Source: Natronococcus sp. CG52
GTDB lineage: Archaea > Halobacteriota > Halobacteria > Halobacteriales > Natrialbaceae
Direction: 5' to 3'
DNA: 64,000 nt
Assembly (NCBI RefSeq): GCF_023913515.1
Contig: NZ_CP099393.1
Coordinates: 62,001 to 126,000 of the forward strand
Shown piece after piece: positions 1,289 to 18,567 of this stretch; positions within the stretch are counted from its first letter, which is position 1; each line of letters opens with the position of its first letter. The notes under the pieces were generated by a model. The model was not told the DNA's origin and did not search any database. It saw only the letters and a list, made by a program, of their open reading frames with translations. The translations under genes and the position numbers were made by a program.

Positions 1289-2053
1289 ATGGCGACTGAT
1301 TACGACTCCGTCGAACCGCTGTTGCGAATGAAAGACATTCACAAGTGGTACGGTTCGGTCCACGCGCTGAAGGGCGTCGACTTGCAGGTGTACCCGGGCG
1401 AAATCCTCGGGCTGCTCGGCGACAACGGTGCCGGAAAGTCGACGCTGATCGAGATGATCGCCGGTGTCCACCAGCCGACGGAGGGTGATATCTTCTGGAA
1501 AGGTGAACACACCGAAATTTCGTCGGTCAACAACGCCCGGGAGCTGAGCATCGAGACCGTGTTTCAGGATCAAGCGGTCGTCGAGGGCCGGAGCGTCGCA
1601 CAGAACGTCTTCCTCGGACGCGAGTTGACGAAAGGAGTCGGGCCCGTTCATCTGCTTGATAAACCGCAGATGCGCGAGGAAGCGGAGAGCGTCACGCAGA
1701 GTCTCGGTCTGGACATCGCCTCGCCCGAACAGGAGGTCCGCTTCTGTTCCGGCGGAGAGAAACAGGGCGTCGCAATCGCTCGGGCGATGTACTTCGACGC
1801 GGAGCTCGTCATCATGGACGAGCCGACGACTGCACTGGCCATCTCCGGTGTCCGTAAGGTCCTCGATTTCATCGAACAGTTGGCGGAGTCCGGGACAGCC
1901 GTAATCTTCATTTCTCACAACCTTCCCCACGCTTACGACATCTGTGAACGGTTCGTCGTCTTCTCGCGGGGTGATAAGGTGGGCGACGTCCGGAAGGAGG
2001 AGACCGACGTCGACGAACTCGAGGGAATGCAGGCAGGACTTCCGGACGACTAA
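1289..2053 (+). CDS. Sugar ABC transporter ATP-binding protein (single ABC domain)
   Basis: The 254-residue protein is a complete ABC ATPase with Walker A GDNGAGKST (residues 44-52), Q-loop Q93, signature SGGEKQ (154-159) and Walker B ELVIMDEP (172-179). It resembles the sugar CUT2 ATPases of the RbsA/XylG type. Those usually carry two ABC domains in about 500 residues, while this protein has one and so presumably acts as a homodimer. The receptor and permease genes follow on the same strand (gaps of 157 and 210 bases). The catabolic context points to uptake of L-rhamnose or a rhamnoside, but the sequence alone does not fix the substrate. Confidence 0.9.
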   Translation: MATDYDSVEPLLRMKDIHKWYGSVHALKGVDLQVYPGEILGLLGDNGAGKSTLIEMIAGVHQPTEGDIFWKGEHTEISSVNNARELSIETVFQDQAVVEGRSVAQNVFLGRELTKGVGPVHLLDKPQMREEAESVTQSLGLDIASPEQEVRFCSGGEKQGVAIARAMYFDAELVIMDEPTTALAISGVRKVLDFIEQLAESGTAVIFISHNLPHAYDICERFVVFSRGDKVGDVRKEETDVDELEGMQAGLPDD

Positions 2054-2210
2054 TTCGCGGTAGTCCGCTCAGGTTAGACTGGGTCTGTGTATACAGTCCG
2101 AATCGTCGTTTCGACTCTTTCAGCACTGTCCGCGATCGATTAGAGTTTTGGTGCTAATTGAAAAACAGGAAAGATTTTTACCCTTCTACTTGAATACGGT
2201 AAACGTACAT

Positions 2211-3353
2211 ATGGTAGACGATAGCAACAGTCGAGTAGAGAGGCGAGACCTCTTGAAAGGTATTGGTGCAGCGGGTGTGGCAGGACTGGCTGGCTGTATG
2301 GGCGACGATAACGGTGACGGGCGGCCGTTTTACCCGCACACGATCTGGGGCATGTACGGCGCCTGGGAGGAAGCATACGTACAGGGCGGCGAGTTCTACG
2401 CGGAGGACCACGATTTCGAGTTCGATAACTACAATACCGGCGGTACAGAGGAGGAACAGATCTCACACATCCAGACGTTCATGCAACAGGGCGCCGATGG
2501 CATTCTCATCGGTCCGGTCTCCGCGACGGCGACGGCGGGACAGGTCGAGACCGCGGTCGACGACGGCATTCCGGTGATTGCTGCCAACTCCGACATCGAG
2601 ACAGAAGCGCTCACGATGAGCGTCTACATCGGAAACGAACCCGCCTGTGAGGAGTTGGGTGAGGAAATCGTCGACTACCTCGAGACGGAGGTCGGCTCCG
2701 ACGGCGAGATTGGGGGGACCGTCATCGACCTTCAGGGTGACCTCGGGATGAGCATCGGTATCGAGCGAGAGGAAGGGTTCCAGAACGCCATGGAGGGCCA
2801 CGACGGGATCGACGTACGGCAAATTAGCGCCGGCTTCAACAGGGAGCCGGCACAGGAGGACACCTATTCCCTGCTCCAGTCCGAGGACGGCGAGATCGAT
2901 GCAATCTTCGCCGCCAACAGCGAGATGGCGATCGGTGCTGCGAACGCCCTTGACACGTATGGGATGGACCCCGGCGACGTGTTCATCGCATCGATGGATG
3001 GCGGACCGGCGCTGATCGACCACATGGACGAGGGGTGGGTTCAGCGGGGTTTCTCCCAGCCAACCCAGTACTACCTCCCGATCGCGATGCACTATCTGGA
3101 GATCGCCCAAACCGAAGGCGAGGACGCACTCCCCGAGGTTGGCGAAGAGATCACCACGGACGATTTCGAAATCAGCGGCGGTGAACACCTCGGAACGAAC
3201 ATCTGGGCGGAACAGGACTGGGCGCCGGCCGAGATCCGCGAACGGCACGGACATCGGTGGTTCCAGACGAACGGCCGGTTGTTAACGCCCGACAACTACG
3301 ACGATCCCGCCAACTGGGGTGTTGTCTTTGCCGACGAGGCGGACGACGACTGA
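2211..3353 (+). CDS. Sugar-binding lipoprotein of the ABC transporter
   Basis: This is a 380-residue substrate-binding protein of the periplasmic-binding-protein type 1 (RbsB-like) fold. The start at 2211 gives a proper signal: RRDLLKGIGAAG then LAGC with lipobox Cys29, so it is probably Tat-exported and lipid-anchored outside the membrane. A longer frame from 2148 adds 21 residues before the signal and is rejected. Motifs such as GADGILIGPVSATAT and IPVIAANSDIETEAL are typical sugar-receptor segments. It lies between its ATPase and permease. The likely ligand is rhamnose or a short rhamnoside, inferred only from context. Confidence 0.9.
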   Translation: MVDDSNSRVERRDLLKGIGAAGVAGLAGCMGDDNGDGRPFYPHTIWGMYGAWEEAYVQGGEFYAEDHDFEFDNYNTGGTEEEQISHIQTFMQQGADGILIGPVSATATAGQVETAVDDGIPVIAANSDIETEALTMSVYIGNEPACEELGEEIVDYLETEVGSDGEIGGTVIDLQGDLGMSIGIEREEGFQNAMEGHDGIDVRQISAGFNREPAQEDTYSLLQSEDGEIDAIFAANSEMAIGAANALDTYGMDPGDVFIASMDGGPALIDHMDEGWVQRGFSQPTQYYLPIAMHYLEIAQTEGEDALPEVGEEITTDDFEISGGEHLGTNIWAEQDWAPAEIRERHGHRWFQTNGRLLTPDNYDDPANWGVVFADEADDD

Positions 3354-3522
3354 GACTCGAGCCGCTGCAGACGCCACCAGCAGCGCGAACGACTGCGAAA
3401 TCGATTCGAATTCGATTCGAAAACGATAGGCGGTCCGGAATCGGTATCCCGATTTGCGCAACGAACGTCGATGCTGTCGACAGTTATTTTCCGCGTAATT
3501 GTACCTCGTCCCGACAACAACG

Positions 3523-3530
3523 TTTATATA
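3523..3530 (+). promoter_or_regulatory. TATA-box candidate for the permease gene
   Basis: TTTATATA lies 34-41 bases before the permease ATG in a 210-base gap. This suggests the permease can be transcribed separately from the ATPase and receptor genes. Confidence 0.5.
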
Positions 3531-3563
3531 TGATGGTTTTGAACGGATTGGTAGAGGTCCGAG

Positions 3564-4577
3564 ATGCAACTAGACTTGCAAGGAATCGACGCACTGACGG
3601 ACGGAGAGACATCGACACGGACGAAATTATTTCTTGTCGATAATTTTATCTGGGTACTACTGGTACTGACGACGATCGCCTTCGGCATTCTCAACGGCCC
3701 GCAGTTCTTCAACTACTCAAATCTTCAGTTCATCGTTTTCGCGAGCGTGATGCTCAGCTTCCTGGTTATGGCGGAGGGGATCTGTCTGCTGAGCGGTAAT
3801 TTCGACCTCTCGGTCGGGCAGGCAGCGGGTTTCGCGGGAATGCTCAACGCGATGCTGTTGACGAGCTGGGCGCCGTGGATGCCGTGGTATCTCGGCGTCG
3901 CGACGATCCTCTTCGTCGGCGCCGTGATCGGTGCGACGAACGGCTTCTTCATCGCGTACATGGACCTGAACCCGTTCCTAGTGACCCTGGGAACGTTTTT
4001 CATCCTCCAGTACGCGATGCTCGAGATCAGTCTCAACCCGATCAGCGGACTCCCCGACGCGTACCTCGCGCTCGGTGGCGACACGCTTGCGGGCGTTCCG
4101 ATCGCGATCTTCCTGCTCGTCGTCACGGCCGTGCTCCTGCACGTACTGTTGCGTCACACGCGATTCGGGAGTAACGTTTACTCCGTCGGTGGCGATCCGG
4201 AAGCGTCCAGCCGCGTCGGTATCAGCAAGACGCGGACGATCTTCCTCGTCTTCGTGCTCTCCGGGATGCTCAGCGCATTTTCCGGGCTGCTCTACACCGG
4301 ATTTCTCAGCTCAGCGACGCCGGGGATGGCCGACGGAGCCCTGTTCATGGCGTTTGCCGGTGCGGTCATCGGCGGTGCGAGCCTCTCGGGCGGCCGCGGA
4401 TCGATTATTAACATGATTGGTGGGGCATTACTCATCGGTGTGTTCGACGCTGGCCTCGTTCAGACGGGCCTGAGCGGCAACCAGGTCAACATTTTCTTCG
4501 GCGTGCTGGTGATCGTCGCGATCATCATCAACCGCTATCGCGAGCAGAAGCGAGACGACCTGTTGACGCCGAGCTGA
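3564..4577 (+). CDS. Sugar ABC transporter permease (RbsC-like)
   Basis: This 337-residue hydrophobic protein belongs to the BPD_transp_2 family. It has about ten membrane segments and the conserved LLSGNFDLSVGQAAGFAGM region (about residues 74-92) and GGASLSGGRGS region (about 272-282) of ribose-type permeases. The cytoplasmic N-terminus is unusually acidic, as expected in a halophile. No second permease gene follows, so the channel is probably a homodimer paired with the single-domain ATPase upstream. It ends the transporter group; the exported rhamnosidases come next. Confidence 0.88.
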   Translation: MQLDLQGIDALTDGETSTRTKLFLVDNFIWVLLVLTTIAFGILNGPQFFNYSNLQFIVFASVMLSFLVMAEGICLLSGNFDLSVGQAAGFAGMLNAMLLTSWAPWMPWYLGVATILFVGAVIGATNGFFIAYMDLNPFLVTLGTFFILQYAMLEISLNPISGLPDAYLALGGDTLAGVPIAIFLLVVTAVLLHVLLRHTRFGSNVYSVGGDPEASSRVGISKTRTIFLVFVLSGMLSAFSGLLYTGFLSSATPGMADGALFMAFAGAVIGGASLSGGRGSIINMIGGALLIGVFDAGLVQTGLSGNQVNIFFGVLVIVAIIINRYREQKRDDLLTPS

Positions 4578-4854: not shown

Positions 4855-7800
4855 ATGAGTGACAATCATACCGATTCGACGGCAGCGGAATCGCACATGA
4901 CCGACGAACCACCGACCGGTCACATCGACCGTCGGGACTATTTGCGGTACACGGGCACGCTCGCGGGCGGTTCGGTGATAGCCGGATACGCCACGCAACC
5001 CGCAGGGGCCAGCGGCGGGACGAGCAACGACGACTCCGAGCCCTTCGGGCCGACGAACCTGCGAGTGGAGTACGACCAAGACCCGAACAACGTGCTCCCC
5101 ACCGCGGGCGCATCGAATGACGCACTCGAGGCGCCGCGGTTTTCCTGGGAGGTGACAGGTCCGCGAGGCGCCGCCCAGTCGGCGTACCGCATCCTCGTTG
5201 CGGACAGTCGGGAGGCCCTCGAGCGCGGCGATGGCACCGTCTGGGACAGCGGCACGGTCGAATCCTCGCGGTCGGTCAACGTCCTGTACAACGGCGAGCC
5301 GCTCGATTCCGACACGACCTACTACTGGACCGTGCGGATCTGGGACGGCGACGAGGCGAGCGACTGGAGCGAGCCGGCGCAGTTCGTGACGGCACTTCCT
5401 CACGACGGCGAGCACTGGGAGGGCGAGTGGATAGGTCCCGACTACGGCGAGTGGGACGAGGACGACCCGATCGACTATGATTTCCTCGAGGAGGGCGACT
5501 ACGACGACCGTCCCGAACCGCTGCTGCGAAACGAGTTCGACCTCGAGAGGGAGGTCGAGGAGGCGAGGATTCATATCAGTGGTCTGGGATGTTACGAACT
5601 GTACCTCAACGGCGAGCGTGTTGGTGACCGCGTCCTCGAGCCCGCCCAGACGCAATATGACGAGCGGGTACTCTACTCGACGTACGACGTGACCGAGTAT
5701 CTGGCGAAGGAGACGAACGCTATCGGGGTCGCCTTAGGTCGCCTCCGCTTCGGCGAGATGGTCGCGGACAATGGCTCTTGGAGGTGGAGCCACGCTCCAT
5801 GGTGGAGTGATCCGCAACTGCTGGTCCAGCTGAACGTCGAGTTCGCCGACGGAACGAGCACGTCGATCGTCACTGACGACGACTGGCGAATGACCGACGG
5901 GCCGACGCAGTTCGACTCGCTGTTCGCCGGAGAGATATACGACGCCCGGGAGGAGAAACGGGGGTGGACGGAGCCGAACTACGACGACGGCGATTGGGAG
6001 ACGTCGCCGATCGCCGACGACCCCGACGCGGAGATTTCGCCCCAGCACGTCCAGCCGATGCGAGTGCGCGCCACCCTCGACCCCGTCGAGATCACCGAGC
6101 CCGAGGAGGGCGTCTACGTCGTCGACTTCGGACAGGTCATGACCGGCTGGGCGGAGTTGACCGTCGACGGCGAGGCGGGGACCGGAGTCACCGTCAGTTA
6201 CGGCGAGAAGCTCAACGACGACGGTACGGTAGACAACTCCAACTTCCTCGTTGCGGCCCCGATGCAACGGGACCACTACGTTCTCGAGGGCGACGGACCG
6301 GAGACCTGGGAGCCGAGTTACAGCTACAAGGGCTTCCGGTACGTGCAGGTCGAAGGCTACCCCGGCGAACCGAGCCCCGGCGACTTCGAGGCGAAGTACG
6401 TCTACACCGCCTTCGACGAGGGCGTCAAAAGCGGCTTCGAGTCCTCCAACGAACTGCTCAATCGGATCCACGAGAACACGTTGTGGGCGTACCGCAATAA
6501 CATGCAGGGCCTGCCGACGGACACCCCAAAACTCGAGAAGAACGGGTGGACCGGCGACGCCCAGCTGACCGCGGAGGCGGGGATCTACAACTACGACATG
6601 GCTCGGTTCTGGAGGAAGTGGCTCCGCGACTTCGCCGACGCCCAGCGCGAGGACGGCGAGGTCCCGACCGTCGTTCCTCACAACACTGAATACAGCATTC
6701 TCGGCTTCGAACCGAATTTCGGCGCCGTGCTGGGTCCCACGCCCGGTTGGGACGCGGCGTTCATCCTCATCCCGTGGTGGGTCTACCAGTACTACGGCGA
6801 CGAGCGGATCCTCGAGACGCACTACGAGGACTGGAAGCAGTACATCGACTGGATCCAGCAGTATTCCGAGGGAGACGTTCTTGAGGACCTTCCCGACCAG
6901 ATGTCGGGTGATGAAGAGGCTATCCGCACCTTCGAGGACAGCCACGTCCTCCCGGTCGGGCTCGGCGACTGGGGCGGTGCACCGCTGACCGACACGGACG
7001 ACGGATACGGCGGTAGCGGCGACGAGGTGCCGATCACCTCCACGGCCTACTACTACCGGTTCGCGAAGGCGCTCGCCGAGACCGCCGCGCTCATCGGCGA
7101 AGACGAGGAGGCCGCCGAGTGGGACGCCCTCGCCGAGGAGATTCGCGAGGACTTCAACGACGAGTTCCTTGATACGGAGCGGGGCTACTACCGGACCGGC
7201 CAGCACGAGGCGTACCTCCAGACCTCGAACCTCCTCCCGCTCGCGTTCGATATGGTTCCGGAGGAATACGAGGGCATCGTTGTCGAGAACCTCGTCGGGG
7301 ACGTGATGGAGACCCACGACGGCCACCTTAACACCGCGACACTCGGGACGAAGTACCTCCTTCCGGTCCTCACGGAGTACGGCCACCACGACGTCGCCTA
7401 CACGGTGGCGACGCAGACGGACTACCCCAGCTGGGGACTTTGGATCGAGGAGGGCCGGACGTCGCTGCTCGAGTTCTGGGAGCTCGACTCCCGCTCGTGG
7501 AACCACCACTTCCTCGGAGTGACCGACGAGTGGTTCTACAAGCACCTCGCGGGCATTCAGGTCGACGAACCCGGCTTCGAGCACGTCCGAATCGCCCCGA
7601 AGCCGGTCGGTGATCTCGAGTCGGCGAGCGGGAAAACCGATACCGTCAGGGGCGTCGTCGAGTCCAGTTGGGAACTCGTCGAGTCGCCCGGTGAGGGCCG
7701 GGGGATTCGTCTCGAGGTGACGATCCCCGGGAACGCGACGGCGACCGTCGAGATTCCGGCGCTCGGCGCCGAGCGGGCCCGAGTCCGGGAGAGCGGCACG

Positions 7801-7935
7801 AACATCTGGAACAACGGTAACCGGACGAACCGGGACCACCCCGGAATCGAATCGGTCGAGCGAACGGACGAGGCCGTCGTCGTCGAGGTCGGCGCCGGCG
7901 AGTACGCGTTCGAACTCGAGCGGATCGGGAACTGA
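4855..7935 (+). CDS. Tat-exported alpha-L-rhamnosidase, GH78 type
   Basis: The 1,026-residue protein begins with a twin-arginine signal (RRDYLRYTG, about residues 26-34). It follows bacterial GH78 architecture: Fn3-like N-terminal domain (about 60-190), a carbohydrate-binding beta domain with YELYLNGERVGD (about 240-255), then the (alpha/alpha)6 catalytic domain. The catalytic signature reads TDTPKLEKNGWTGD, with acids D556, E561 and D568 matching the DCPQR-E--GWTGD motif of the family. A C-terminal beta-sandwich with GFEHVRIAPKP follows. It should release terminal L-rhamnose outside the cell to feed the adjacent transporter. The polymer is unknown; plant rhamnogalacturonan and algal ulvan are both plausible. 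Confidence 0.88.
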   Translation: MSDNHTDSTAAESHMTDEPPTGHIDRRDYLRYTGTLAGGSVIAGYATQPAGASGGTSNDDSEPFGPTNLRVEYDQDPNNVLPTAGASNDALEAPRFSWEVTGPRGAAQSAYRILVADSREALERGDGTVWDSGTVESSRSVNVLYNGEPLDSDTTYYWTVRIWDGDEASDWSEPAQFVTALPHDGEHWEGEWIGPDYGEWDEDDPIDYDFLEEGDYDDRPEPLLRNEFDLEREVEEARIHISGLGCYELYLNGERVGDRVLEPAQTQYDERVLYSTYDVTEYLAKETNAIGVALGRLRFGEMVADNGSWRWSHAPWWSDPQLLVQLNVEFADGTSTSIVTDDDWRMTDGPTQFDSLFAGEIYDAREEKRGWTEPNYDDGDWETSPIADDPDAEISPQHVQPMRVRATLDPVEITEPEEGVYVVDFGQVMTGWAELTVDGEAGTGVTVSYGEKLNDDGTVDNSNFLVAAPMQRDHYVLEGDGPETWEPSYSYKGFRYVQVEGYPGEPSPGDFEAKYVYTAFDEGVKSGFESSNELLNRIHENTLWAYRNNMQGLPTDTPKLEKNGWTGDAQLTAEAGIYNYDMARFWRKWLRDFADAQREDGEVPTVVPHNTEYSILGFEPNFGAVLGPTPGWDAAFILIPWWVYQYYGDERILETHYEDWKQYIDWIQQYSEGDVLEDLPDQMSGDEEAIRTFEDSHVLPVGLGDWGGAPLTDTDDGYGGSGDEVPITSTAYYYRFAKALAETAALIGEDEEAAEWDALAEEIREDFNDEFLDTERGYYRTGQHEAYLQTSNLLPLAFDMVPEEYEGIVVENLVGDVMETHDGHLNTATLGTKYLLPVLTEYGHHDVAYTVATQTDYPSWGLWIEEGRTSLLEFWELDSRSWNHHFLGVTDEWFYKHLAGIQVDEPGFEHVRIAPKPVGDLESASGKTDTVRGVVESSWELVESPGEGRGIRLEVTIPGNATATVEIPALGAERARVRESGTNIWNNGNRTNRDHPGIESVERTDEAVVVEVGAGEYAFELERIGN

Positions 7936-8162
7936 CTCGGTCCACGGCGTCCTCGACGACGGCGAACACGACCATCTCAGCGGCCGTTTGCATCGGCTCG
8001 TCGATACCGCCGGCGACGCGGTCGATGGCTCTCGAACGCTTTTTTCTCTAGCTCGCTTTATATTAGTGTTGGGCACAGTAACAAATTCCGAGAAGATTGT
8101 GGTTTCTTATCACACCTAGACGAGACCGACTAGTCGGCAGACTGCCAGAAACGGTGATCGAA

Positions 8163-11159
8163 ATGGATCAGCATTCAGACCGTCGAATCGACGGTACAGA
8201 CGGACGTACAGGACTGACTATAGATCGGCGCGGCTACCTCAAATCGACCGGCGCCCTCGCGGGATTGTCGCTCACGGGAGCGGCCAGTGCGGGCGCGGAA
8301 CCCGGTAATTCTGAGGAACGGAGTCGGGAGCAACGCGACTTTGCGGCCGAATTCGCGGATCCAAGCAGGGACGTACAGCCGAAATTCAGGTGGTGGTGGC
8401 CCCACGCGAAGGTCGAGCACGACGAGCTCGTCCGAGAGATAAACGAGATCGCAGACGCGGGCTTCGGCGGCGTTGAGATCGCTGACGTCCATCACAGCGT
8501 CGAGGAGCCCATCGACCCCGAGCAGTACGGCTGGGGAACGGAGGCGTGGACGAGCGTCGTCGAGACCGCACTACGGGCCGCGAAAGAACGTGACGTCATC
8601 GTCGACCTGACTATCGGACCGAGTTGGCCGGCCGCCGTCCCGACGGTCACGCCGAACAGTGAGGCCGCAGCGAAGGAACTCGTGTTCGGACGGACCACCC
8701 TCTCGGGCGGTGAGACGTACGACGGTCCGATTCCGGATTCCGACGTCGAACCAGCGAGCGACGAGTTGGATCCGACGCTCGTTGCCGTGCAAGCCGCTCG
8801 CCTCACCGGCTCGGACGGCTCCGAGTGGGCGTTAGCACGGGACTCGCTCGTCGACCTGACTGAGTCGGTCGAGGACGGTAGCCTCACGTGGACTGCGCCG
8901 AGCGACGGGGAGTGGGCGCTCATCAGCTACTGGCAGCGGGGAACGGTACAGCAGCCCGAAGCCGGGCCACACACGAGCCCGGAGTCGTACGTCATCGATC
9001 ACTTCAGCGAGGCGGGGACGCGAGCGGTCACTAACTTCTGGGAGGAAAACATCCTGACACCGACTATTCGAGACCTCCTCTTCGACGCCGGTGGGACGCT
9101 CTTCGAGGACTCCCTCGAACTGGAAGCCGCTACCGTCTGGACACCGAAGGCGCTCGCCGAATTCGAGGACCGCATGGGGTATTCGCTCCGCGAGTACCTC
9201 CCGCTGATCGTAAACGAGGATGACGATCCCGCGTTCGAATTCGGTGACGGACTCACCTCGCAGGTGCGACGCGACTACTGGGAGACGCTGACCCAGCTGT
9301 ATCTCGAGAACCACGCCGAACTGCTCAGAGACTGGGCGCATTCCATCGGTCTCGGTTTACGGGTCCAACCGTACGGTCTGGAGACGGACGCCATCGCGGC
9401 GTCCGCAGTCGTGGACGTCCCCGAGGGCGAATCCCTCGGGTTCAGTAACAACGACGACTTCCGGTGTCTCGCCGGCGGACGCGACATGGGCGGGAACGAG
9501 ATTCTATCCGAAGAGGCCGGTGCGTACCGCGGCGGCGCGTACAATACGACGTGGGAGACCGTGCTCGAATCCCTGAATAATCACTATGCAGCCGGCGTGA
9601 ATCAGGCCGTCCTGCACGGGTACTCCTACGCAGATGCACCCGGTGCTCAGTGGCCGGGGTTCGCAGCGTTCACGCCGTATAACGGGTGGCCGGGGTACTC
9701 GGCCTCGTGGGGGTCGCGGCAACCGACCTGGGAGCACGTCCCCGATATCTCCGGCTATCTGAGCCGAACCCAGCAGCTCCTACAGAGCGCGACGTCGAAG
9801 GTCGACGCCGCGATCCTCCGACAGAAGGGATACGCGGGAACCGGATTCGGTGCCCCGTGGTTCACCGATCACGGCGTCCGACGGGGATATTCGTACCAGT
9901 TCCTCAGTCCCGCACTACTGACCGGGCCGAACGCGACGGTTGAGGACGGTCGACTGGCACCCGACGGCCCCGCGTATAAGGTGTTCGTGGTCTACGAGGA
10001 CGACTTCACCGGCGAGAACACGCTGCTGGTCGAGTCGGCCGAGCGGATCCTCGAGTTCGCGAAGGACGGGCTGGCGGTCGTCGTCGTCGGTGACGATTAT
10101 CACGTGCCGGGGATCCCGCAACCGGGCGAGAACGAGCGACTGAACGAGATAATGGCGGAGTTACTCGCCCAGCCGAGCGTGACTCAGGTCTCGAGGGAGG
10201 TCGATATTCCGGTCGGGCTGGAAGAGCAGAACGTTACCCCTGACCTCGAGTACACCGAGACATCCCCGGTGTTGAACGTCCACCGTGCGGGGAAGCGCGT
10301 GGACTATTACTATCTGCACAACCCGTCAGACGAAGCGGTGAGCCACTCGGTCTCCGCGGTGGCAAACGTGCCGGAGGCGGTGCCATACGAGCTCGACGCG
10401 TGGACCGGTGAGTTCGAACGCATCGTGGAGTACGAAGAAGGAGACGGTCGCATCACCGCGTCCGTGGCGCTGGCGCCCGGCGAATCGACGATTCTCGCGA
10501 TCGGGAGACGGAGCTGGTACAACGACCGGACGAGCGTGAGCGTGCACGCGACGAGCAGCGAAGTCGCGGACCTCCGCGCCGAGGACGGTACGCTCGTGGC
10601 TCGTGACACGAGGGAGGGCACGTACACGATGACGCTCTCGAGCGGGAGAACCGTCGAGACGACCATCGAGGACGTTCCTGACGCCCGGCAATTGTCAAGT
10701 TGGCAGCTCTCCGTAGAGGACTGGCGTCCCGGCGATTCGGCGACCGAGACGATCACGAAGCACCACGAATTCGACCTCGATGAGTTACGACCGTGGACGG
10801 AAATCCCCGAGTTGGAAGACGTCTCGGGCGTCGGGACGTACGCGACGACGGTCGAACTCGGTGAGGCGTGGACCGGCGGTCACGGCGCGTATCTGGACCT
10901 CGGCGAGGTGTTCGATACCTTCCGGGTAACGGTGAACGGCGAACAGTTACCGCCCGTCAGCCAAGTGAACCCGGTGGCCGACGTCGGCCCTCACCTCGAA
11001 TCGGGGACCAACACCATCGAAGTCGAGGTCGCGACCACGCTGAACAATCGGATGCGTCTCGCGCGACCGGAGATATACGATATCATGCCGCGCCAGGAGT
11101 ACGGCTTGCTCGGACCGGTGGAACTCGTTCCGTACGGCGAGGCGCCCGTAACGGAGTAG
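8163..11159 (+). CDS. Tat-exported alpha-L-rhamnosidase-like glycoside hydrolase, GH106 type
   Basis: The 998-residue protein starts with a Tat signal (RRGYLKSTG) and opens its mature part with PKFRWWWPHAKVE followed by ADAGFGGVEIADV. This tryptophan-rich start is characteristic of GH106 alpha-L-rhamnosidases. The C-terminus carries a beta-sandwich with a sugar-binding-like DTFRVTVNGEQL segment. The start at 8163 is preferred over an in-frame start at 8097 because it puts the signal near the N-terminus. A TATA-like CTTTATA lies at 8056-8062. Two structurally unrelated rhamnosidases side by side suggest a branched substrate or different linkages. GH106 assignment is by motif and length, not alignment. 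Confidence 0.8.
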   Translation: MDQHSDRRIDGTDGRTGLTIDRRGYLKSTGALAGLSLTGAASAGAEPGNSEERSREQRDFAAEFADPSRDVQPKFRWWWPHAKVEHDELVREINEIADAGFGGVEIADVHHSVEEPIDPEQYGWGTEAWTSVVETALRAAKERDVIVDLTIGPSWPAAVPTVTPNSEAAAKELVFGRTTLSGGETYDGPIPDSDVEPASDELDPTLVAVQAARLTGSDGSEWALARDSLVDLTESVEDGSLTWTAPSDGEWALISYWQRGTVQQPEAGPHTSPESYVIDHFSEAGTRAVTNFWEENILTPTIRDLLFDAGGTLFEDSLELEAATVWTPKALAEFEDRMGYSLREYLPLIVNEDDDPAFEFGDGLTSQVRRDYWETLTQLYLENHAELLRDWAHSIGLGLRVQPYGLETDAIAASAVVDVPEGESLGFSNNDDFRCLAGGRDMGGNEILSEEAGAYRGGAYNTTWETVLESLNNHYAAGVNQAVLHGYSYADAPGAQWPGFAAFTPYNGWPGYSASWGSRQPTWEHVPDISGYLSRTQQLLQSATSKVDAAILRQKGYAGTGFGAPWFTDHGVRRGYSYQFLSPALLTGPNATVEDGRLAPDGPAYKVFVVYEDDFTGENTLLVESAERILEFAKDGLAVVVVGDDYHVPGIPQPGENERLNEIMAELLAQPSVTQVSREVDIPVGLEEQNVTPDLEYTETSPVLNVHRAGKRVDYYYLHNPSDEAVSHSVSAVANVPEAVPYELDAWTGEFERIVEYEEGDGRITASVALAPGESTILAIGRRSWYNDRTSVSVHATSSEVADLRAEDGTLVARDTREGTYTMTLSSGRTVETTIEDVPDARQLSSWQLSVEDWRPGDSATETITKHHEFDLDELRPWTEIPELEDVSGVGTYATTVELGEAWTGGHGAYLDLGEVFDTFRVTVNGEQLPPVSQVNPVADVGPHLESGTNTIEVEVATTLNNRMRLARPEIYDIMPRQEYGLLGPVELVPYGEAPVTE

Positions 11160-11291
11160 GAACGGCATCCTAACGGCGATCCCCGCCTTTTCGTCGGGCG
11201 TACTGGCCGACGTGCTACCGGTATCCACGTCTCGGGAAATTCGATACCCCGTAGCGAAGATTTACTATGCGTCCTCGATAACCGTTCGAAT

Positions 11292-12120
11292 ATGCTTGAC
11301 ACCCCATACGCACGCGTGGGGCGCAGCGAGCCGCGACCACCCGTGGGTGAACGGTCCGTTGTTAGACGTCGTCGACGACTTCGACGTGCACACCGTCTAC
11401 ACCGCCGATCGACTGCTGGCGGACATGGATCGCAACGGGATCGACGAGGCGGTCGTCGTCGGCTATCCGATCTGCGAGTGGACGGACAACTGGTACACGC
11501 TGCGGGCCGCCGAGGAGTACGACCGACTGTACGGCATCGTGATGCTCGACCCGTTCGCCGACGACGCGGCCGAGCGGCTTCGTCGCTGTATGGAGACGGA
11601 CGGAATCCTCGGGTTCCGCCTCGGGACCGCCTGCCCCTACGATCGGATGTGGGAGACGTTCGATCCGAGCGTCGCCTGGCTCCGAGACGCGATCGAGGAG
11701 ACCGAGTTCTGGGAGGCCGCCCTCGAGACGGATGCCGCCGTACAGATCCTCTGTGACCACCGACAGTTGGACCAGGCGCTCGAGCTCGTCGAAACCTACC
11801 CGGATCTCACCTATCTGTTCGATCACTTCACACACGCGGACCCGGAGACGCCGACCGACGACGGAACGTTCGCGCAGTTCGCCGACCTCGCCGAGTACGA
11901 CACCGTCGCCGTGAAGGTCTCGGAGATTCCGCACATGTCCGAGACGACGTTCCCATACGAGGACATGCACGAGCACGTGCGCTGGTTCCTCGAGACGTTC
12001 AGCCGCGAGCGGATCGTCCGGGGGTCGGACTACCCGAACGTCAGCGACGTCGCCAGCTACGCCGAGTCGTACAACTGGCTCCGCGAAGTCGACTCGCTCT
12101 CCGAGTTCGATCGCGAGTAG
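11292..12120 (+). CDS. Amidohydrolase-2 family lactonase (candidate L-rhamnono-lactonase) with a 5' frameshift
   Basis: The protein resembles sugar-lactone hydrolases of the amidohydrolase-2 family, with PHTHAWG near the start, CDHRQLDQAL, TYLFDHF and RIVRGSDYPN towards the end. In sugar oxidation such enzymes open the aldonolactone made by the dehydrogenase. The expected start is the ATG at 11292, but this frame reads MLDTPYARVG. Dropping one C from the run of four at 11302-11305 restores MLDTHTHAWG, with the HxH metal motif, in frame with the rest (275 residues). Either the gene is frameshifted or the run was misread. The remaining 270 codons are undamaged, which favours a recent change or error. 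Confidence 0.75.
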
Positions 12121-12463: not shown

Positions 12464-12945
12464 GTAGTCTACACAGCGTGCTACATCGCCATTTAGGTTT
12501 GATTCACACCCAGTCGGTCGAAGGCGCAGGTCCGGTTCGACGGGGTTCATTCGGTTGTCGGCTCTGACGAACCGAAGAGGCAGGAGCGCCGCAACCAGTG
12601 GCGAGACGATCAGTCAAACGAGACACGTCCTCATGGACTCGAATCTCGTAGCGTCGATACCGCGACGTTCGAGGAGTCTGTCAGTATATCCGGTGATAGC
12701 GGAAGAGTTCTATTACAAACGTATGTTCGTAAAGAGGGGCGAATTACTCCTCATCACCGATCGTGTTACACGTATTCTTATCGAGAGTCTCATGACAATT
12801 GGTATTATTTTCCGGCATCGCCGGAAATAGAGCGAGAATTGGTCGAGGAGAACGCAGCGACCGCAACGTCGCCATCGTCCAAAGGTTTATATCAGGACAC
12901 ATACAAGGAATCGATGATCAGGGCAAGCCTGAGGTATCAAGACAA
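12464..12945. promoter_or_regulatory. Gene-free gap with inverted repeat and promoter for the zinc dehydrogenase
   Basis: No gene is supported in this stretch. It holds the rest of the lut promoter duplicate (to about 12515), a perfect inverted repeat TTTCCGGC-ATC-GCCGGAAA at 12809-12827, and TTTATAT near 12886-12892, which is a plausible TATA element about 55 bases before the start at 12946. The palindrome lies upstream of TATA, a position that suits an activator or a distal operator. Confidence 0.45.
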
Positions 12946-13977
12946 ATGAAGGCAATCGTTCAAACGGGGGCCGAAGAAGTCGAAGTACAGGAACGCGAGA
13001 AACCGACTCCCGATCCGAACGAGGTGCTCGTCTCGGTTCACTCGGCGGGCCTATGCGGGAGCGACGCACACGCGTATAAATACGACGGCGGATACGAGTG
13101 GATACCGATCCCGCGTATCATGGGCCACGAATACTCGGGTCGGGTCGCCGATGTCGGCGAGAACGTCGATCAGTTCGACGTCGGACAGAAGGTCATCGAG
13201 GAACCGATCCACGACTGCGGTCACTGTTTCCAGTGTAAGAACGGGCAGGAGAACGTCTGTCAGAACTTCTCTATCAGCGGTATGCACAAAGACGGAGCCT
13301 ACGCCGAGTACGTTACCGTCGAAGCGCAACACGTCCACGCCGTCCCCGACGACGTCCCGCTCCGGCACGCGGCGATCACGGAACCGACGAGCATCGCCAC
13401 CCGTGCCGTCCTCGATCAATCGGTGACGACGCCGGGAGACACCGTCCTCGTCGAAGGACCAGGTCCGATCGGGGTCCTCGTCGCGGCTGTCGCCGACTCG
13501 CTGGGCGCCAACGTCCTCGTCTCCGGTCTCGAGCAGGACGCCACCTATCGGCTCCCGCTGCTCGACGAGCTCGGCATCGAGACGGTGAACGTCCAGGCCG
13601 CCGATCTCGAAGAGCGTGCCGAGGCGTTCACCGACGGCATCGGGTTCGACGTCGTGTTCGATTCGACCGGACACCACACCGGCCTCGGGACCGCCGTCGA
13701 CCACGTCCGCAAGGGCGGTCAGGTCGTCGTCGTCGGCATTCCCAATGACACCAGCGAGGTCACGTTTACGCCGGTCGTCCGCGGCGAGATCGAGGTCAAC
13801 ACCTCGTACGGATCGACGTGGCGAAACTTCGAGCAGGCGCTGCGACTGATGGAACGCGGCGAGATCGCCGTCGACCAGATCCTTGATACATCCTACAGTG
13901 CGGACGAGCCCGCGGCCGCCTTCGAAGCGTTCCTCGGGTCCGAGACCTGCAAGCCCGTCTTCCAGTTCTCAGCGTGA
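12946..13977 (+). CDS. Zinc-dependent medium-chain alcohol/sugar dehydrogenase
   Basis: The 343-residue MDR-family enzyme has catalytic zinc ligands C37 (GLCGSD), H61 and E62 (GHEYSG), structural zinc cysteines C91, C94, C97 and C105, and a Rossmann motif EGPGPIGVLVA (about 169-179). It resembles sorbitol/threonine-type dehydrogenases. The start MKAIVQTGAEEVEV is preferred over an opening 49 codons earlier, which adds a non-homologous basic stretch. In this island it could oxidise L-rhamnose to the lactone or 2-keto-3-deoxy-L-rhamnonate to the diketo acid. No short-chain dehydrogenase is present to take the other step. Confidence 0.85.
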   Translation: MKAIVQTGAEEVEVQEREKPTPDPNEVLVSVHSAGLCGSDAHAYKYDGGYEWIPIPRIMGHEYSGRVADVGENVDQFDVGQKVIEEPIHDCGHCFQCKNGQENVCQNFSISGMHKDGAYAEYVTVEAQHVHAVPDDVPLRHAAITEPTSIATRAVLDQSVTTPGDTVLVEGPGPIGVLVAAVADSLGANVLVSGLEQDATYRLPLLDELGIETVNVQAADLEERAEAFTDGIGFDVVFDSTGHHTGLGTAVDHVRKGGQVVVVGIPNDTSEVTFTPVVRGEIEVNTSYGSTWRNFEQALRLMERGEIAVDQILDTSYSADEPAAAFEAFLGSETCKPVFQFSA

Positions 13978-14438
13978 CCGCCCGTGGTTCGATGGAATGG
14001 ACGCGAAGGAACGGTCGGGCGAACACGGCGGTGCAGTAGTACGATTGGCGGCACCGAAACGTCGCTGCGTACGCGGACCGAAACCCACAGAACCGTCGCT
14101 GGGTCGAGAACCGACGGGCCGTCTTTTCGAGCTGCGAGCGGTCGAGTTGCAGTATCGCGGCGGTAGCGACCTCAGCTGCGTGGATGGACGTCGTTCCAAC
14201 TGCCAGTTCGAACGTCACGGCTATGACGGTAGCGTTCGCCGCCTGATACGGACTGCCGTCAGTCAGTTCCGGTGGGACTGCCACCCGTTCTGCGGTTGCG
14301 CCGGTACATCGTTACACCAGACCGTATGAAGCGTCGCAGTGCTGGCGTCGAACGCGACGGAGACGGCGCAGTGCGGGTCGAACAGTGAAAAAGATTTTAT
14401 CGTGTCCGGGGGAAGTGGTACGTACCGAACGAGATACC
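13978..14438. other. Gap without a supported gene
   Basis: Open frames here have odd composition (Arg/Ser rich) and no family resemblance. An A/T-rich AAAAAGATTTTATCG at 14387-14401 may be the promoter of the enolase-family gene that starts at 14439. Confidence 0.4.
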
Positions 14439-15644
14439 ATGGAGATTACAGACGTCAGTGCGACCAAGATAAGCAACGAATCGTGGGGCGAGTTCATCGA
14501 GTTCCCACTCGTCACGATCATGTCGAAGTACGACGAGTACCGGAACGTCGACGGTGAGAACCCCCAGGCCCGCCGCAAGTGGATGGGTCCTGTGGGCGAC
14601 GTCGTCGTCGAGGTCGAGACGGACGCCGGCATCACCGGCGTCGGCGTCGGTAACTGGGGCACCGGGGCCATCGCCACCGTCGTCGAGGAGACGCTCTCGA
14701 AGATCGTGATGGGCGAGGATCCCACACAGCGCGAACGCCTCTGGGAGCAGATGTACCGCGCGACGCTCCCCTTCGGTCGGAAGGGTGTGGCCGTGATGGC
14801 GATCAGCGCGGTCGATCAAGCACTGTGGGACATCGCGGGCAAGGACGCCGGCAAGCCGGTGTACGAACTTCTCGGCGGTCCCACGAAAGACGAGATTCCC
14901 GCCTACGCGTCAAATCTCCACCCCGTCGACATGGAGACACTCGAGCGCGAGGCCATTCAGTACGCCGAGGAGGGCTTCGACGCGATGAAGCTCCGCTTTC
15001 TCCACGGCCCCGAAGCCGGCCGCTCGGGCATGAAGAAAAACGAGGAGATCGTGAAGACGGTCCGGGACGCCGTCGGCGACGAGCTCGAGATCGCCGGCGA
15101 CGCGTACATGGGCTGGAGCGTGAAGTACGCGAAGAAGATGACCCAGCGCCTCGAACCCTACGACATGGCATGGGTCGAGGAGCCGGTCATCGCCGACGAC
15201 ATCGCCGGTTACGCCGAGGTCCGCGAGGCCGCACCGATGCCCATCTCCGGCGGCGAGCACGAGTTCACCCGCTGGGGCCACGAGGACCTCCTCGAGGAGG
15301 GCGCCGTCGACATCCTCCAGCCCGACGTGGGCCGCGTCGGCGGCATCACGGAACTGCAGAAGGTCGCCGACATGGCCGAGGTCCACGACGTGCCCGTGAT
15401 TCCACACGCCGGCACGAATCCGACGCTCCACGCCATCGCAGCGCACACGAACATGCCGATGGCGGAGTACTTCCCGACCCCCGAGTGGTTCGAGGAGCAA
15501 CAGGAGGAGCAAGACTCCACCTACGCCGACGCCATCTTCGAGAACCCACCCTCGCCCGAGAACGGATCGATCCCGATCCCCGATGACCCCGGCATCAGCA
15601 CCCAGTTGAACCGCGAGGCGCTAGAACACTTCGCCGTGGAGTGA
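14439..15644 (+). CDS. Enolase-superfamily acid-sugar dehydratase, L-rhamnonate dehydratase type
   Basis: The 401-residue protein has the capping and barrel domains of the mandelate racemase/enolase superfamily. Metal ligands are D221 (GDAYMGW), E247 (WVEEP) and E273 (GGEHEF). H323 (IPHAG) and D296 (LQPDVGRVGG) form the base dyad. The GEHE-F, QPDVG and PHAG pattern fits rhamnonate dehydratases better than mandelate racemases or galactonate dehydratases, although fuconate or another aldonate cannot be excluded. It would make 2-keto-3-deoxy-L-rhamnonate. The start MEITDVSATKI at 14439 is chosen over an upstream frame. The next gene starts 3 bases after the stop, so the two are one transcript. 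Confidence 0.83.
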   Translation: MEITDVSATKISNESWGEFIEFPLVTIMSKYDEYRNVDGENPQARRKWMGPVGDVVVEVETDAGITGVGVGNWGTGAIATVVEETLSKIVMGEDPTQRERLWEQMYRATLPFGRKGVAVMAISAVDQALWDIAGKDAGKPVYELLGGPTKDEIPAYASNLHPVDMETLEREAIQYAEEGFDAMKLRFLHGPEAGRSGMKKNEEIVKTVRDAVGDELEIAGDAYMGWSVKYAKKMTQRLEPYDMAWVEEPVIADDIAGYAEVREAAPMPISGGEHEFTRWGHEDLLEEGAVDILQPDVGRVGGITELQKVADMAEVHDVPVIPHAGTNPTLHAIAAHTNMPMAEYFPTPEWFEEQQEEQDSTYADAIFENPPSPENGSIPIPDDPGISTQLNREALEHFAVE

Positions 15645-15647
15645 CCC

Positions 15648-16682
15648 ATGTCCGAAGACATCACGTTCGAGTACAACGTACCGGTGTTCGCCGGCGCGCC
15701 GGACGAGGGAAGCACCGAGCCCGAACATCGCGACACGCCCCGCTACGAGTCGTTGGACTGGGAGACGACCAGAGCCGGCATCGAGACGGCCGAGGAACTC
15801 GGCTTCGATGCGGCGTGGGCGCCCGACCACCTGATGCTGGGCCGCGATCACGCCGAGTACGAGTGCTGGACGCTGCTGTCGGCCGCCGCTGGCTTCACCG
15901 ACGACATCAACCTCGGATCGCTCGTCCTCTGTAACGACTACCGAAACCCCGCGCTCGTCGCGAAGATGGCGGCCACGCTGGATGTGATCTCCGATGGCCG
16001 ACTCGAGCTGGGGCTCGGCGCCGGCTGGCACGAGCCCGAGTACGACGCCTACGGCTGGGAGTACCGCGGCGGGTTCGAGCGGTTGATGCGCTTGGACGAG
16101 TCGATCCGTCTGATGAAGCGAATGTGGGACACCGGCAGCGACGGGGCGAGCTTCGACGGCGATCACTATCAGATCGAGGACGCGTACTGTGCACCGCCGC
16201 CGGTCCAGGACCCGCATCCGCCCATCCTCGTCGGCGGACAGGGTGAGGAGGTTACGCTCAAACTGGTCGCCAAACACGCGGACGTCTGGAATACGGACGT
16301 CTTCAACGGCGACGTCGAGACCCTGAATCACAAGATCGGAGTCATCGAAGACCACTGCGAGACCGTCGGCCGCGATCCCGACGAGATCGAGTACTCCTGG
16401 GACGGCCACGTCATCTGCACGCACGACGAGGAGAAGTTCGATCGCCTGCTCGATCAGATGACCCCGATTCAGTTCGAGGAGGAGTACCAGGACCAGGCGC
16501 CGATCGAGACCGAAGAAGACGCCCGCGAATACTTCATCATGGGGACGCCCGAGGAGTGCGCCGAGGCAATCGAACGCCGCATTGATGCCGGCGTGACAAA
16601 GTTCCAATTCTGGTTCACTGACTTCCCGGACACGAGCGGGATGGAACTGTTCGCGGACGACGTGATTTCGGAGTTCCGCTGA
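15648..16682 (+). CDS. Luciferase-like (LLM) flavin/F420-dependent oxidoreductase
   Basis: This 344-residue protein is a bacterial-luciferase-fold enzyme: AAWAPDHLML, LGLGAGWHEPEY, PPILVGGQGE and a C-terminal TPEECAEAIERRIDAGV segment. The family includes FMN monooxygenases and F420-dependent dehydrogenases such as F420-glucose-6-phosphate dehydrogenase. It begins 3 bases after the dehydratase gene, so it is probably translated with it. That coupling makes a role in the same sugar pathway likely. It might act as the 4-dehydrogenase step that is otherwise unassigned, using F420 or flavin. This functional idea is inference from position only. Confidence 0.85.
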   Translation: MSEDITFEYNVPVFAGAPDEGSTEPEHRDTPRYESLDWETTRAGIETAEELGFDAAWAPDHLMLGRDHAEYECWTLLSAAAGFTDDINLGSLVLCNDYRNPALVAKMAATLDVISDGRLELGLGAGWHEPEYDAYGWEYRGGFERLMRLDESIRLMKRMWDTGSDGASFDGDHYQIEDAYCAPPPVQDPHPPILVGGQGEEVTLKLVAKHADVWNTDVFNGDVETLNHKIGVIEDHCETVGRDPDEIEYSWDGHVICTHDEEKFDRLLDQMTPIQFEEEYQDQAPIETEEDAREYFIMGTPEECAEAIERRIDAGVTKFQFWFTDFPDTSGMELFADDVISEFR

Positions 16683-16890: not shown

Positions 16891-17649
16891 ATGACAACAC
16901 AAGTCCCGGTGAAGGCGGCCAAGGTGACGTTGGAGATCATCGACACCCTCCGGCAACTCGACGGGGCCGGCGTCTCCGAAATCGCACAACAGCTGGATAA
17001 ACCTACGAGTACAGTCCACGACCACCTTCGGACGCTCGAGCAGGAACAGTACCTCGTCAAGGAAGGCGACGAGTACCATATCAGCACGCGGTTCCTGCAG
17101 CTCGGCGACCAGGCGCGCTCGCGAAAAAAGGTGTTCGAGATCGCCCGCCCGGAGATCAACGAACTCGCCGAGAAGAGCGGCGAGCACGCCAATCTCATGA
17201 TCGAAGAACACGGGCTTGGTGTCTTCCTCTACCGAGCTCGCGGCCCCGACGCCGTTCAGCTCGACACGCACGCCGGAATGCGTGTCCCGCTGCAGACGAC
17301 AGCCATGGGCAAGACCATTATGGCCTTCCGGCCGCGGGAGGATGTCGAGGAGATCCTCGACCGACACGGTCTTCCAGCAGTCACCGAGAACACGATCTCG
17401 GAAAGGGACGAACTACTCGACCACCTCGAGGAGATCCGGGAGCGCGGCTACGCGTACGACGACGAGGAACGAGTCAAGGGGATGCGATGCGTTGCGGCGC
17501 CGATCACCGACGACGACGGGCGTGCGATCGCGGCCGTGAGCATCTCCGGCCCGAAGAGTCGCATGCAGGCCGACCGCTTCACGAACGAGATCCCGGAGCA
17601 GATCCGCCGGAGTGCGAACGTCATCGAGGTGAACCTCACCTACTCGTAG
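16891..17649 (+). CDS. IclR-family transcriptional regulator
   Basis: The 252-residue protein has an N-terminal winged helix-turn-helix (about residues 12-62; GVSEIAQQLDKPTSTVHDHL) and a C-terminal IclR effector domain (GMRVPLQTTAMGKTI, then VKGMRCVAAPITD and AIAAVSISGP). Members bind small acids or sugars and control nearby catabolic genes. It sits between the dehydratase/LLM pair and the FAH-fold gene, as expected for a local regulator of the rhamnose island. Its operators may include the inverted repeats at 4778-4798 or 12809-12827. Whether it activates or represses cannot be read from the sequence. Confidence 0.9.
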   Translation: MTTQVPVKAAKVTLEIIDTLRQLDGAGVSEIAQQLDKPTSTVHDHLRTLEQEQYLVKEGDEYHISTRFLQLGDQARSRKKVFEIARPEINELAEKSGEHANLMIEEHGLGVFLYRARGPDAVQLDTHAGMRVPLQTTAMGKTIMAFRPREDVEEILDRHGLPAVTENTISERDELLDHLEEIRERGYAYDDEERVKGMRCVAAPITDDDGRAIAAVSISGPKSRMQADRFTNEIPEQIRRSANVIEVNLTYS

Positions 17650-17718: not shown

Positions 17719-18567
17719 ATGCAGTTCGTTCGATACACGACCGGTGGGGCCCCGCAGTGGGGCGTCCACCGCGACGACGAAATCGTTCCCCTGACGGGGC
17801 TTCGCGAGGACGTATCGTATCAGCAGTTGACCGACGACGGATTCCTGCGAGTCGTCGAAGACGCCGTCGACGCCGCTGAAGCGCGGGCGATTCCCGCGAC
17901 CGAGGTGAACCTACTCGCTCCCGTCCCGCGACCGGGGAAGATCATCTGTGTAGGGCTGAACTACCACGACCACGCCGAGGAACAGAACGAAGAAGTCCCC
18001 GAGCGCCCACTCCTCTTCGGGAAGGCCGGCACGGCGGTCACGAATCCGAACGATCCCATCGTCCACCCGGCTGAACTCGAGGAAGTCGACTACGAGGTCG
18101 AGCTGGGCATCGTCATCGGCCGGACGGCGAAAGACGTCTCGGCGGAACACGCACGTGACTACGTTGCCGGCTACACGGCGATCAACGACGTCAGCGGACG
18201 CGACGCCCAGTTCGCGGACGAGCAGTTCTTCCGCGGGAAGAGCTACGACACGTTCGCGCCGATGGGACCGACCCTCGTCCCCGACTGTCGGCTGGACCCG
18301 TCCGCCCTGGACGTCGTCTGTCGCGTCAACGGCGAAACCATGCAGTCCTCGAACACCGAGGAGTTCATTTTCGACGTCGACGAGATCGTCGAGTACATCA
18401 GCGGTATCACGACGCTGCGACCAGGTGACGTCATCTCCACGGGAACGCCCGGCGGCGTCGGGATCTTCCGCGATCCGCCGGAGCTCTTAGCGCCTGGCGA
18501 CACGGTTGACGTCGAGATCGAGGGAATCGGGACGCTGACCAACCCAGTCATCGCCGAACACGAATAA
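17719..18567 (+). CDS. FAH-family hydrolase (candidate 2,4-diketo-3-deoxy-L-rhamnonate hydrolase)
   Basis: The 282-residue protein belongs to the fumarylacetoacetate hydrolase family. Metal ligands E126, E128 (VDYEVELG) and D157 (INDVSGRD) are present, along with K174 (FRGKSYDTFAPMGP) and the NYHDHAEE lid motif. FAH-fold enzymes hydrolyse carbon-carbon bonds of diketo acids. In the diketo-hydrolase rhamnose pathway known from Haloferax and some bacteria, such an enzyme gives pyruvate and L-lactate. Presence together with the rhamnonate-dehydratase-like gene and lutCB makes this its probable role. It stands 69 bases after the IclR gene. Confidence 0.85.
   Translation: MQFVRYTTGGAPQWGVHRDDEIVPLTGLREDVSYQQLTDDGFLRVVEDAVDAAEARAIPATEVNLLAPVPRPGKIICVGLNYHDHAEEQNEEVPERPLLFGKAGTAVTNPNDPIVHPAELEEVDYEVELGIVIGRTAKDVSAEHARDYVAGYTAINDVSGRDAQFADEQFFRGKSYDTFAPMGPTLVPDCRLDPSALDVVCRVNGETMQSSNTEEFIFDVDEIVEYISGITTLRPGDVISTGTPGGVGIFRDPPELLAPGDTVDVEIEGIGTLTNPVIAEHE

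Follow-up and report, generated by a model that had tools for sequence, protein, structure and literature searches.

We analysed a stretch of 64,000 nucleotides (hereafter the window; C3:62001-126000 of a 4.74-Mb haloarchaeal genome) and found that it very probably carries a haloarchaeal gene cluster for L-rhamnose catabolism (rhc) by the diketo-hydrolase route, in which a zinc enzyme of the medium-chain dehydrogenase/reductase (MDR) superfamily (12946-13977, forward strand) acts at the C4 step, the oxidation of 2-keto-3-deoxy-L-rhamnonate (KDR). The genes for the dehydratase (rhcD), the 4-dehydrogenase (rhcE), the diketo-hydrolase (rhcF) and an IclR regulator are all present together, and the order rhcE-rhcD-LLM-IclR-rhcF, in which LLM is the gene for a luciferase-like oxidoreductase, is common to the window and to relatives annotated with the rhc gene names of Haloferax volcanii.

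The initial annotation located the MDR, dehydratase (14439-15644) and LLM (15648-16682) genes correctly, the last beginning 3 bases after the dehydratase gene. It also held the C4 step to be unassigned and proposed that either the zinc enzyme or the LLM protein might fill it. Our comparisons support the first proposal and not the second, the step being covered by the MDR enzyme. The step that had been flagged already has its explanation. This disposes of one false lead and exposes a sharper question: the LLM gene is as tightly tied to the rhamnonate dehydratase as any pathway gene, and more than half of the clusters lack the dehydrogenase expected for the first step.

The zinc enzyme and the C4 step

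The MDR gene starts at the ATG at 12946 in a frame that opens at 12799, and its product combines the ADH_N and ADH_zinc_N domains. Its motifs are intact (GHE at residue 60, CGSD at residue 37, a four-cysteine structural-zinc motif at residues 91-105, and GxGxxG). RefSeq names its orthologues at the same cluster position rhcE or KDR dehydrogenase, the dehydratase rhcD and the fumarylacetoacetate-hydrolase (FAH) family enzyme rhcF, the last label being found in Haloarcula litorea and Halocatena marina. The protein of the window is 79.5% identical to a RefSeq-named RhcE, and the comparison with RefSeq-named orthologues gave 79.2-82.5% identity over 342 residues, with the same gene order. Orthologues with at least 68% identity occur in 48 of the 49 dehydratase-bearing genomes, the next paralogues being at about 53%.

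A KDR dehydrogenase belonging to the MDR superfamily has been in the literature since 2015 (Bae et al., Extremophiles 19:469; title cited in PMC10444878, PMC6336799 and PMC5674754). To judge by this title, which points to archaea, that enzyme likewise brings the MDR superfamily to the C4 step, a likeness of title and not of sequence. On the same ground, the statement of the initial annotation that both dehydrogenases of this route are short-chain dehydrogenases/reductases (SDRs) elsewhere does not hold, nor does the view that the C4 step lacked an enzyme. Since the MDR protein is an orthologue of RhcE, an enzyme of the MDR type has been published and the motifs are intact, the C4 step is assigned, on sequence grounds, to the zinc enzyme and is already known.

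The other products of the cluster agree with this assignment. The predicted L-rhamnonate dehydratase, an enolase-superfamily RhcD orthologue with MR_MLE domains (forward strand; likeliest start the ATG at 14439), is 91.3% identical to a RefSeq rhcD protein; its best NCBIfam model is that of L-rhamnonate dehydratase, at 267 bits, which is under the 393-bit cut-off. The RhcF orthologue (17719-18567, forward strand), a predicted 2,4-diketo-3-deoxy-L-rhamnonate hydrolase of the FAH family, is 84.4% identical to a RefSeq rhcF protein. The IclR-family regulator between the LLM and FAH genes (16891-17649, forward strand), probably the RhcR orthologue, is 80% identical to its IclR counterpart in the corresponding position of a Haloarcula rhc cluster. 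Two alpha-L-rhamnosidase genes and a sugar ABC importer lie upstream of the pathway genes, and an MDR paralogue is likewise paired with dehydratase and FAH genes in another cluster of the same genome (C3:226000-244300).

According to this scheme, the MDR enzyme would oxidise the hydroxyl group at C4 of KDR, presumably using NAD(P), the FAH-family enzyme would then cleave the diketo acid to pyruvate and L-lactate, and the adjoining LudBC would oxidise the lactate. The LLM protein would be a core member of the cluster and not its C4 enzyme, and the step without a linked enzyme here would be C1, from L-rhamnose to the lactone. What our comparisons show is the orthology, the gene order, the co-occurrence and the lack of a Haloferax-type SDR, whereas every enzyme activity named is inferred. 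The bacterial LRA5/LRA6 route of Sphingomonas SKA58 likewise uses a dehydrogenase and an FAH-family hydrolase to give pyruvate and lactate, but its 4-dehydrogenase is an SDR (PMC6336799) whereas that of the window is an MDR enzyme.

Several points weigh against the assignment of the C4 step to the zinc enzyme. The identification as RhcE rests on RefSeq labels, paper titles and orthology; threonine 3-dehydrogenase models match the protein too, with scores under their cut-offs; and MDR enzymes are promiscuous. In one genome (G226), the dehydratase and the LLM protein are present but no MDR orthologue reaches the threshold.

Linkage of the LLM gene to the dehydratase gene

The LLM gene (forward strand; Bac_luciferase E-value of 1e-54) encodes a TIGR03560-related oxidoreductase that is a constant neighbour of the dehydratase. 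Its orthologues (at least 79% identity, the next paralogue being at 50%) were found in 49 of 391 Halobacteria genomes, and the dehydratase was found in the identical 49, with the two genes adjacent in every one. The spacing between them is 1-10 bases or a 4-base overlap in nearly all relatives, usually 1-4 bases, and because this short spacing is conserved the adjacency is not due to chance. The chance figure for the identical genome sets, 10^-63, is not a true probability, given the relatedness of the genomes and joint transfer. The LLM protein belongs to the rhamnose pathway, as the initial annotation had supposed, its co-occurrence with the dehydratase being complete in this sample. A literature search found no report of an LLM gene in rhamnose clusters.

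The dehydratase tree showed two sharply separate clades of 26 and 23 genomes (support 100/99); one clade has at least 90% and the other 72-79% identity to the protein of the window. When the clade label was mapped on the LLM tree, 12 changes were counted, of which at least 8 were forced by well-supported branches. From these trees, the dehydratase gene thus appears to have been exchanged repeatedly at one constant position next to an LLM gene that was retained, and this pattern ties the LLM gene to the pathway and not to one dehydratase lineage.

Paralogues of the LLM protein with 47-50% identity sit in other clusters, many of which also have a gene for an SDR, for a sugar importer or for a mutarotase. 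These contexts fit a family acting on sugars or sugar acids, and they do not indicate the carbon position. At three loci (L166, L168 and L170), LLM paralogues with 47% identity lie beside SDR, mutarotase-like and sugar-pathway genes, the last being SMP-30 lactonase-like or altronate-dehydratase-like in some, which makes up another, undescribed haloarchaeal sugar cluster. On pHTUR01 of Haloterrigena turkmenica, the mycofactocin synthesis genes mftE, mftA, mftB2, mftC and mftF (L156, 23496-28301) are some 7-12 kb away from the LLM gene that belongs to the rhamnose cluster.

Candidates for the C1 step

If the LLM protein fills a dehydrogenase gap at all, this gap is C1 (L-rhamnose oxidation) and not C4. 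It is either an unrecognised F420- or flavin-dependent L-rhamnose 1-dehydrogenase, or a core enzyme with another role in a pathway whose C1 step is carried out by an unlinked dehydrogenase.

We compared the window with the clusters of Haloferax species other than H. volcanii, in which an SDR gene directly follows the FAH gene. This SDR is likely the L-rhamnose 1-dehydrogenase; the PDB entries that it matches best are of a general kind (acetoin reductase, FabG and glucose 1-dehydrogenase). It was found in 19 of the 391 genomes, all of them within the 49 and none among the other 342. The genome of the window has no orthologue of it (best match 36%), and this lack is common to 30 of the 49 clusters and so is not decisive for cluster membership. 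A second SDR type lies beside the LLM gene in 4 further genomes. In 26 genomes, including that of the window, no SDR, Gfo/Idh or aldo-keto reductase (AKR) match of at least 100 bits occurs within 10 kb of the cluster. Within the same distance, these 26 clusters have the MDR (22 clusters), FAH (19), lactonase (18), mutarotase (15) and LudB (12) genes.

The explanation that we judge somewhat better than even is that C1 is oxidised by an unlinked or promiscuous SDR or Gfo/Idh enzyme, the LLM protein having another role, such as a side reaction with FMN or F420 on some modified form of rhamnose or the repair of a by-product. The initial annotation was right that the window contains no SDR: all PF00106 matches of the replicon (C3:54067, 169978, 180924, 215926 and 234191) are outside C3:62001-126000. 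The genome-wide search that it had proposed gave about 30 SDR-family matches elsewhere but none orthologous to the Haloferax SDR, and two of the genome's own SDRs, at C3:180756 and C3:234146, lie in sugar-acid clusters elsewhere on this replicon. Relatives of the second SDR type (at least 50% identity) occur in the majority of the 30 genomes that lack the first type, and the fungal, bacterial and Thermoplasma (one enzyme) L-rhamnose dehydrogenases aligned in PMC12028159 form one group typified by PF00106. However, these relatives are unlinked to the cluster and mostly scattered, the best match to the second type in the genome of the window has 47% identity, five other genomes of the 30 have no relative at the threshold, and the complete conservation of the LLM gene is left without an explanation.

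The nearest SDR gene, located 8 kb before the window, was considered as the missing enzyme and rejected. Its product shares 34% identity with the Haloferax SDR, and its neighbours, read by eye (IclR, RidA-like, FAD-monooxygenase, acyl-CoA-dehydrogenase and enoyl-CoA-hydratase-like genes), look like those of another pathway, of aromatic type.

The second explanation, which we hold only tentatively, is that the LLM protein is itself the L-rhamnose 1-dehydrogenase, transferring the C1 hydride to F420 (or a flavin) and giving L-rhamnono-lactone for the amidohydrolase, with the SDR as a second, optional enzyme. This activity would be compatible with an MDR enzyme at C4. It would fit the shared distribution and constant adjacency of the LLM and dehydratase genes, the restriction of the Haloferax-type SDR to 19 of the 49 genomes, and the 26 genomes in which lactonase, MDR, hydrolase, LUD and often mutarotase genes are present without a linked SDR, Gfo/Idh or AKR gene. 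The LLM gene of Haloterrigena turkmenica has the mutarotase gene directly after it. The LLM family includes the F420-dependent glucose-6-phosphate and sugar-6-phosphate dehydrogenases (FGD and FSD), which oxidise C1 of sugar phosphates, FSD acting weakly on free sugars (PMC6279831), and the genome of the window has the F420 synthesis gene cofD. The predicted model of the LLM protein (mean pLDDT of 78, below 50 in loop 63-70) shares the fold of FGD and FSD; in the fold search it matched F420 enzymes (Mer, Adf and FGD1) and FMN monooxygenases nearly equally, and VIA-align placed the F420 enzymes first, with the FMN enzymes close.

Comparison of the residues and profile scores argues against this activity. 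Glu109 (the acid) and Trp44 (the pocket wall) of FGD1 are reported to be key for sugar oxidation with F420 (PMC11448927). The phmmer alignment showed that the LLM protein lacks these two residues of FGD1, Adf and FGD2, having Trp in place of Glu109 (GTGE to GAGW) and Gly in place of Trp44 (DHFQPW to DHLMLG), whereas His40 of FGD1, which lines the F420 pocket, corresponds to His61, a residue that does not vary among six orthologues and hardly varies among 30. The protein scored 63-85 bits with the FGD models, far under its 229.9 bits with TIGR03560 (F420_Rv1855c; cut-off 231.4 bits), a name that RefSeq gives to one orthologue. By the Trp44/Glu109 test, the aligned sequence is thus not that of a member of the FGD/FSD group and stands nearer to TIGR03560, and the loss of these residues weakens such membership more than it weakens the oxidation of rhamnose by another arrangement. 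In addition, the LLM gene coexists with the SDR gene in 19 genomes, its paralogues with about 47-50% identity often adjoin an SDR gene too, and unlinked SDRs exist in the genomes checked.

The broader proposal that haloarchaea oxidise C1 of L-rhamnose through an F420- or flavin-dependent LLM enzyme, the invariant partner of the rhamnonate dehydratase, and have the SDR as a dispensable addition, is doubtful. If it were true, this enzyme would act on a free deoxy sugar despite lacking the known residues of the F420 sugar dehydrogenases, and the carbon catabolism of haloarchaea would include either a physiological use of F420 or a flavin reaction of a new kind. Because published work calls the role of F420 in haloarchaea undetermined (PMC8498797, PMC8305020), a sugar step that depends on F420 would be its first clear catabolic role there.

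The third explanation, that the LLM protein and not the MDR enzyme carries out the C4 step, is very improbable and was rejected: the LLM gene is translationally close to the dehydratase gene and never missing, even from G226, but the MDR protein is the RhcE orthologue, of a family named KDR dehydrogenase and present in all but one of the 49 genomes.

Other genes of the cluster and related loci

The upstream genes of the window are all on the forward strand. The ABC importer (1289-4577) consists of an ATP-binding protein (1289-2053), a substrate-binding protein (2148-3353) and a permease of the sugar type (3564-4577, BPD_transp_2). It is followed by two alpha-L-rhamnosidase genes, one with Bac_rhamnosid domains (GH78 type; 4855-7935; Pfam Bac_rhamnosid6H E-value of 9e-94) and one with Glyco_hydro_106 (GH106; 8097-11159; Pfam E-value of 4e-41), and by an amidohydrolase-2 family gene (11212-12120), probably encoding the L-rhamnonolactonase, whose orthologues adjoin a rhamnose mutarotase gene in relatives. 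This lactonase-like gene is duplicated, the second copy (C3:59299-60261, outside the window, 85% identical) being on the other side of the importer and rhamnosidase genes. No L-rhamnose mutarotase (PF05336) was found in the whole genome of the window; most relatives have one in the cluster.

On the reverse strand, a LUD-domain protein (LudC-like; 515-1144) adjoins its LudB-like partner (C3:60327-62522, running from position 522 of the window past the window start). These two genes probably serve the oxidation of the L-lactate product, and deletion of LudBC impairs growth of H. volcanii on rhamnose (PMC8305020).

Comparison with the rhc cluster of H. volcanii (Reinhardt, Johnsen and Schonheit 2019, Mol Microbiol 111:1093, cited here at second hand) showed that the logic of the pathway is shared, whereas the genome of the window lacks the SDR and the rhamnose mutarotase, has an ABC importer of a different type, and has two in-cluster rhamnosidases and two lactonase copies.

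The second diketo-hydrolase-like cluster of the genome (C3:226000-244300) is outside the window and has no LLM gene. It contains Gfo/Idh-like, SDR, MDR, dehydratase, aldehyde-dehydrogenase-like, LudC-like and LudB-like genes, together with two FAH-type and two IclR genes, and its MDR and dehydratase proteins are 50% and 38% identical, respectively, to their counterparts in the window.

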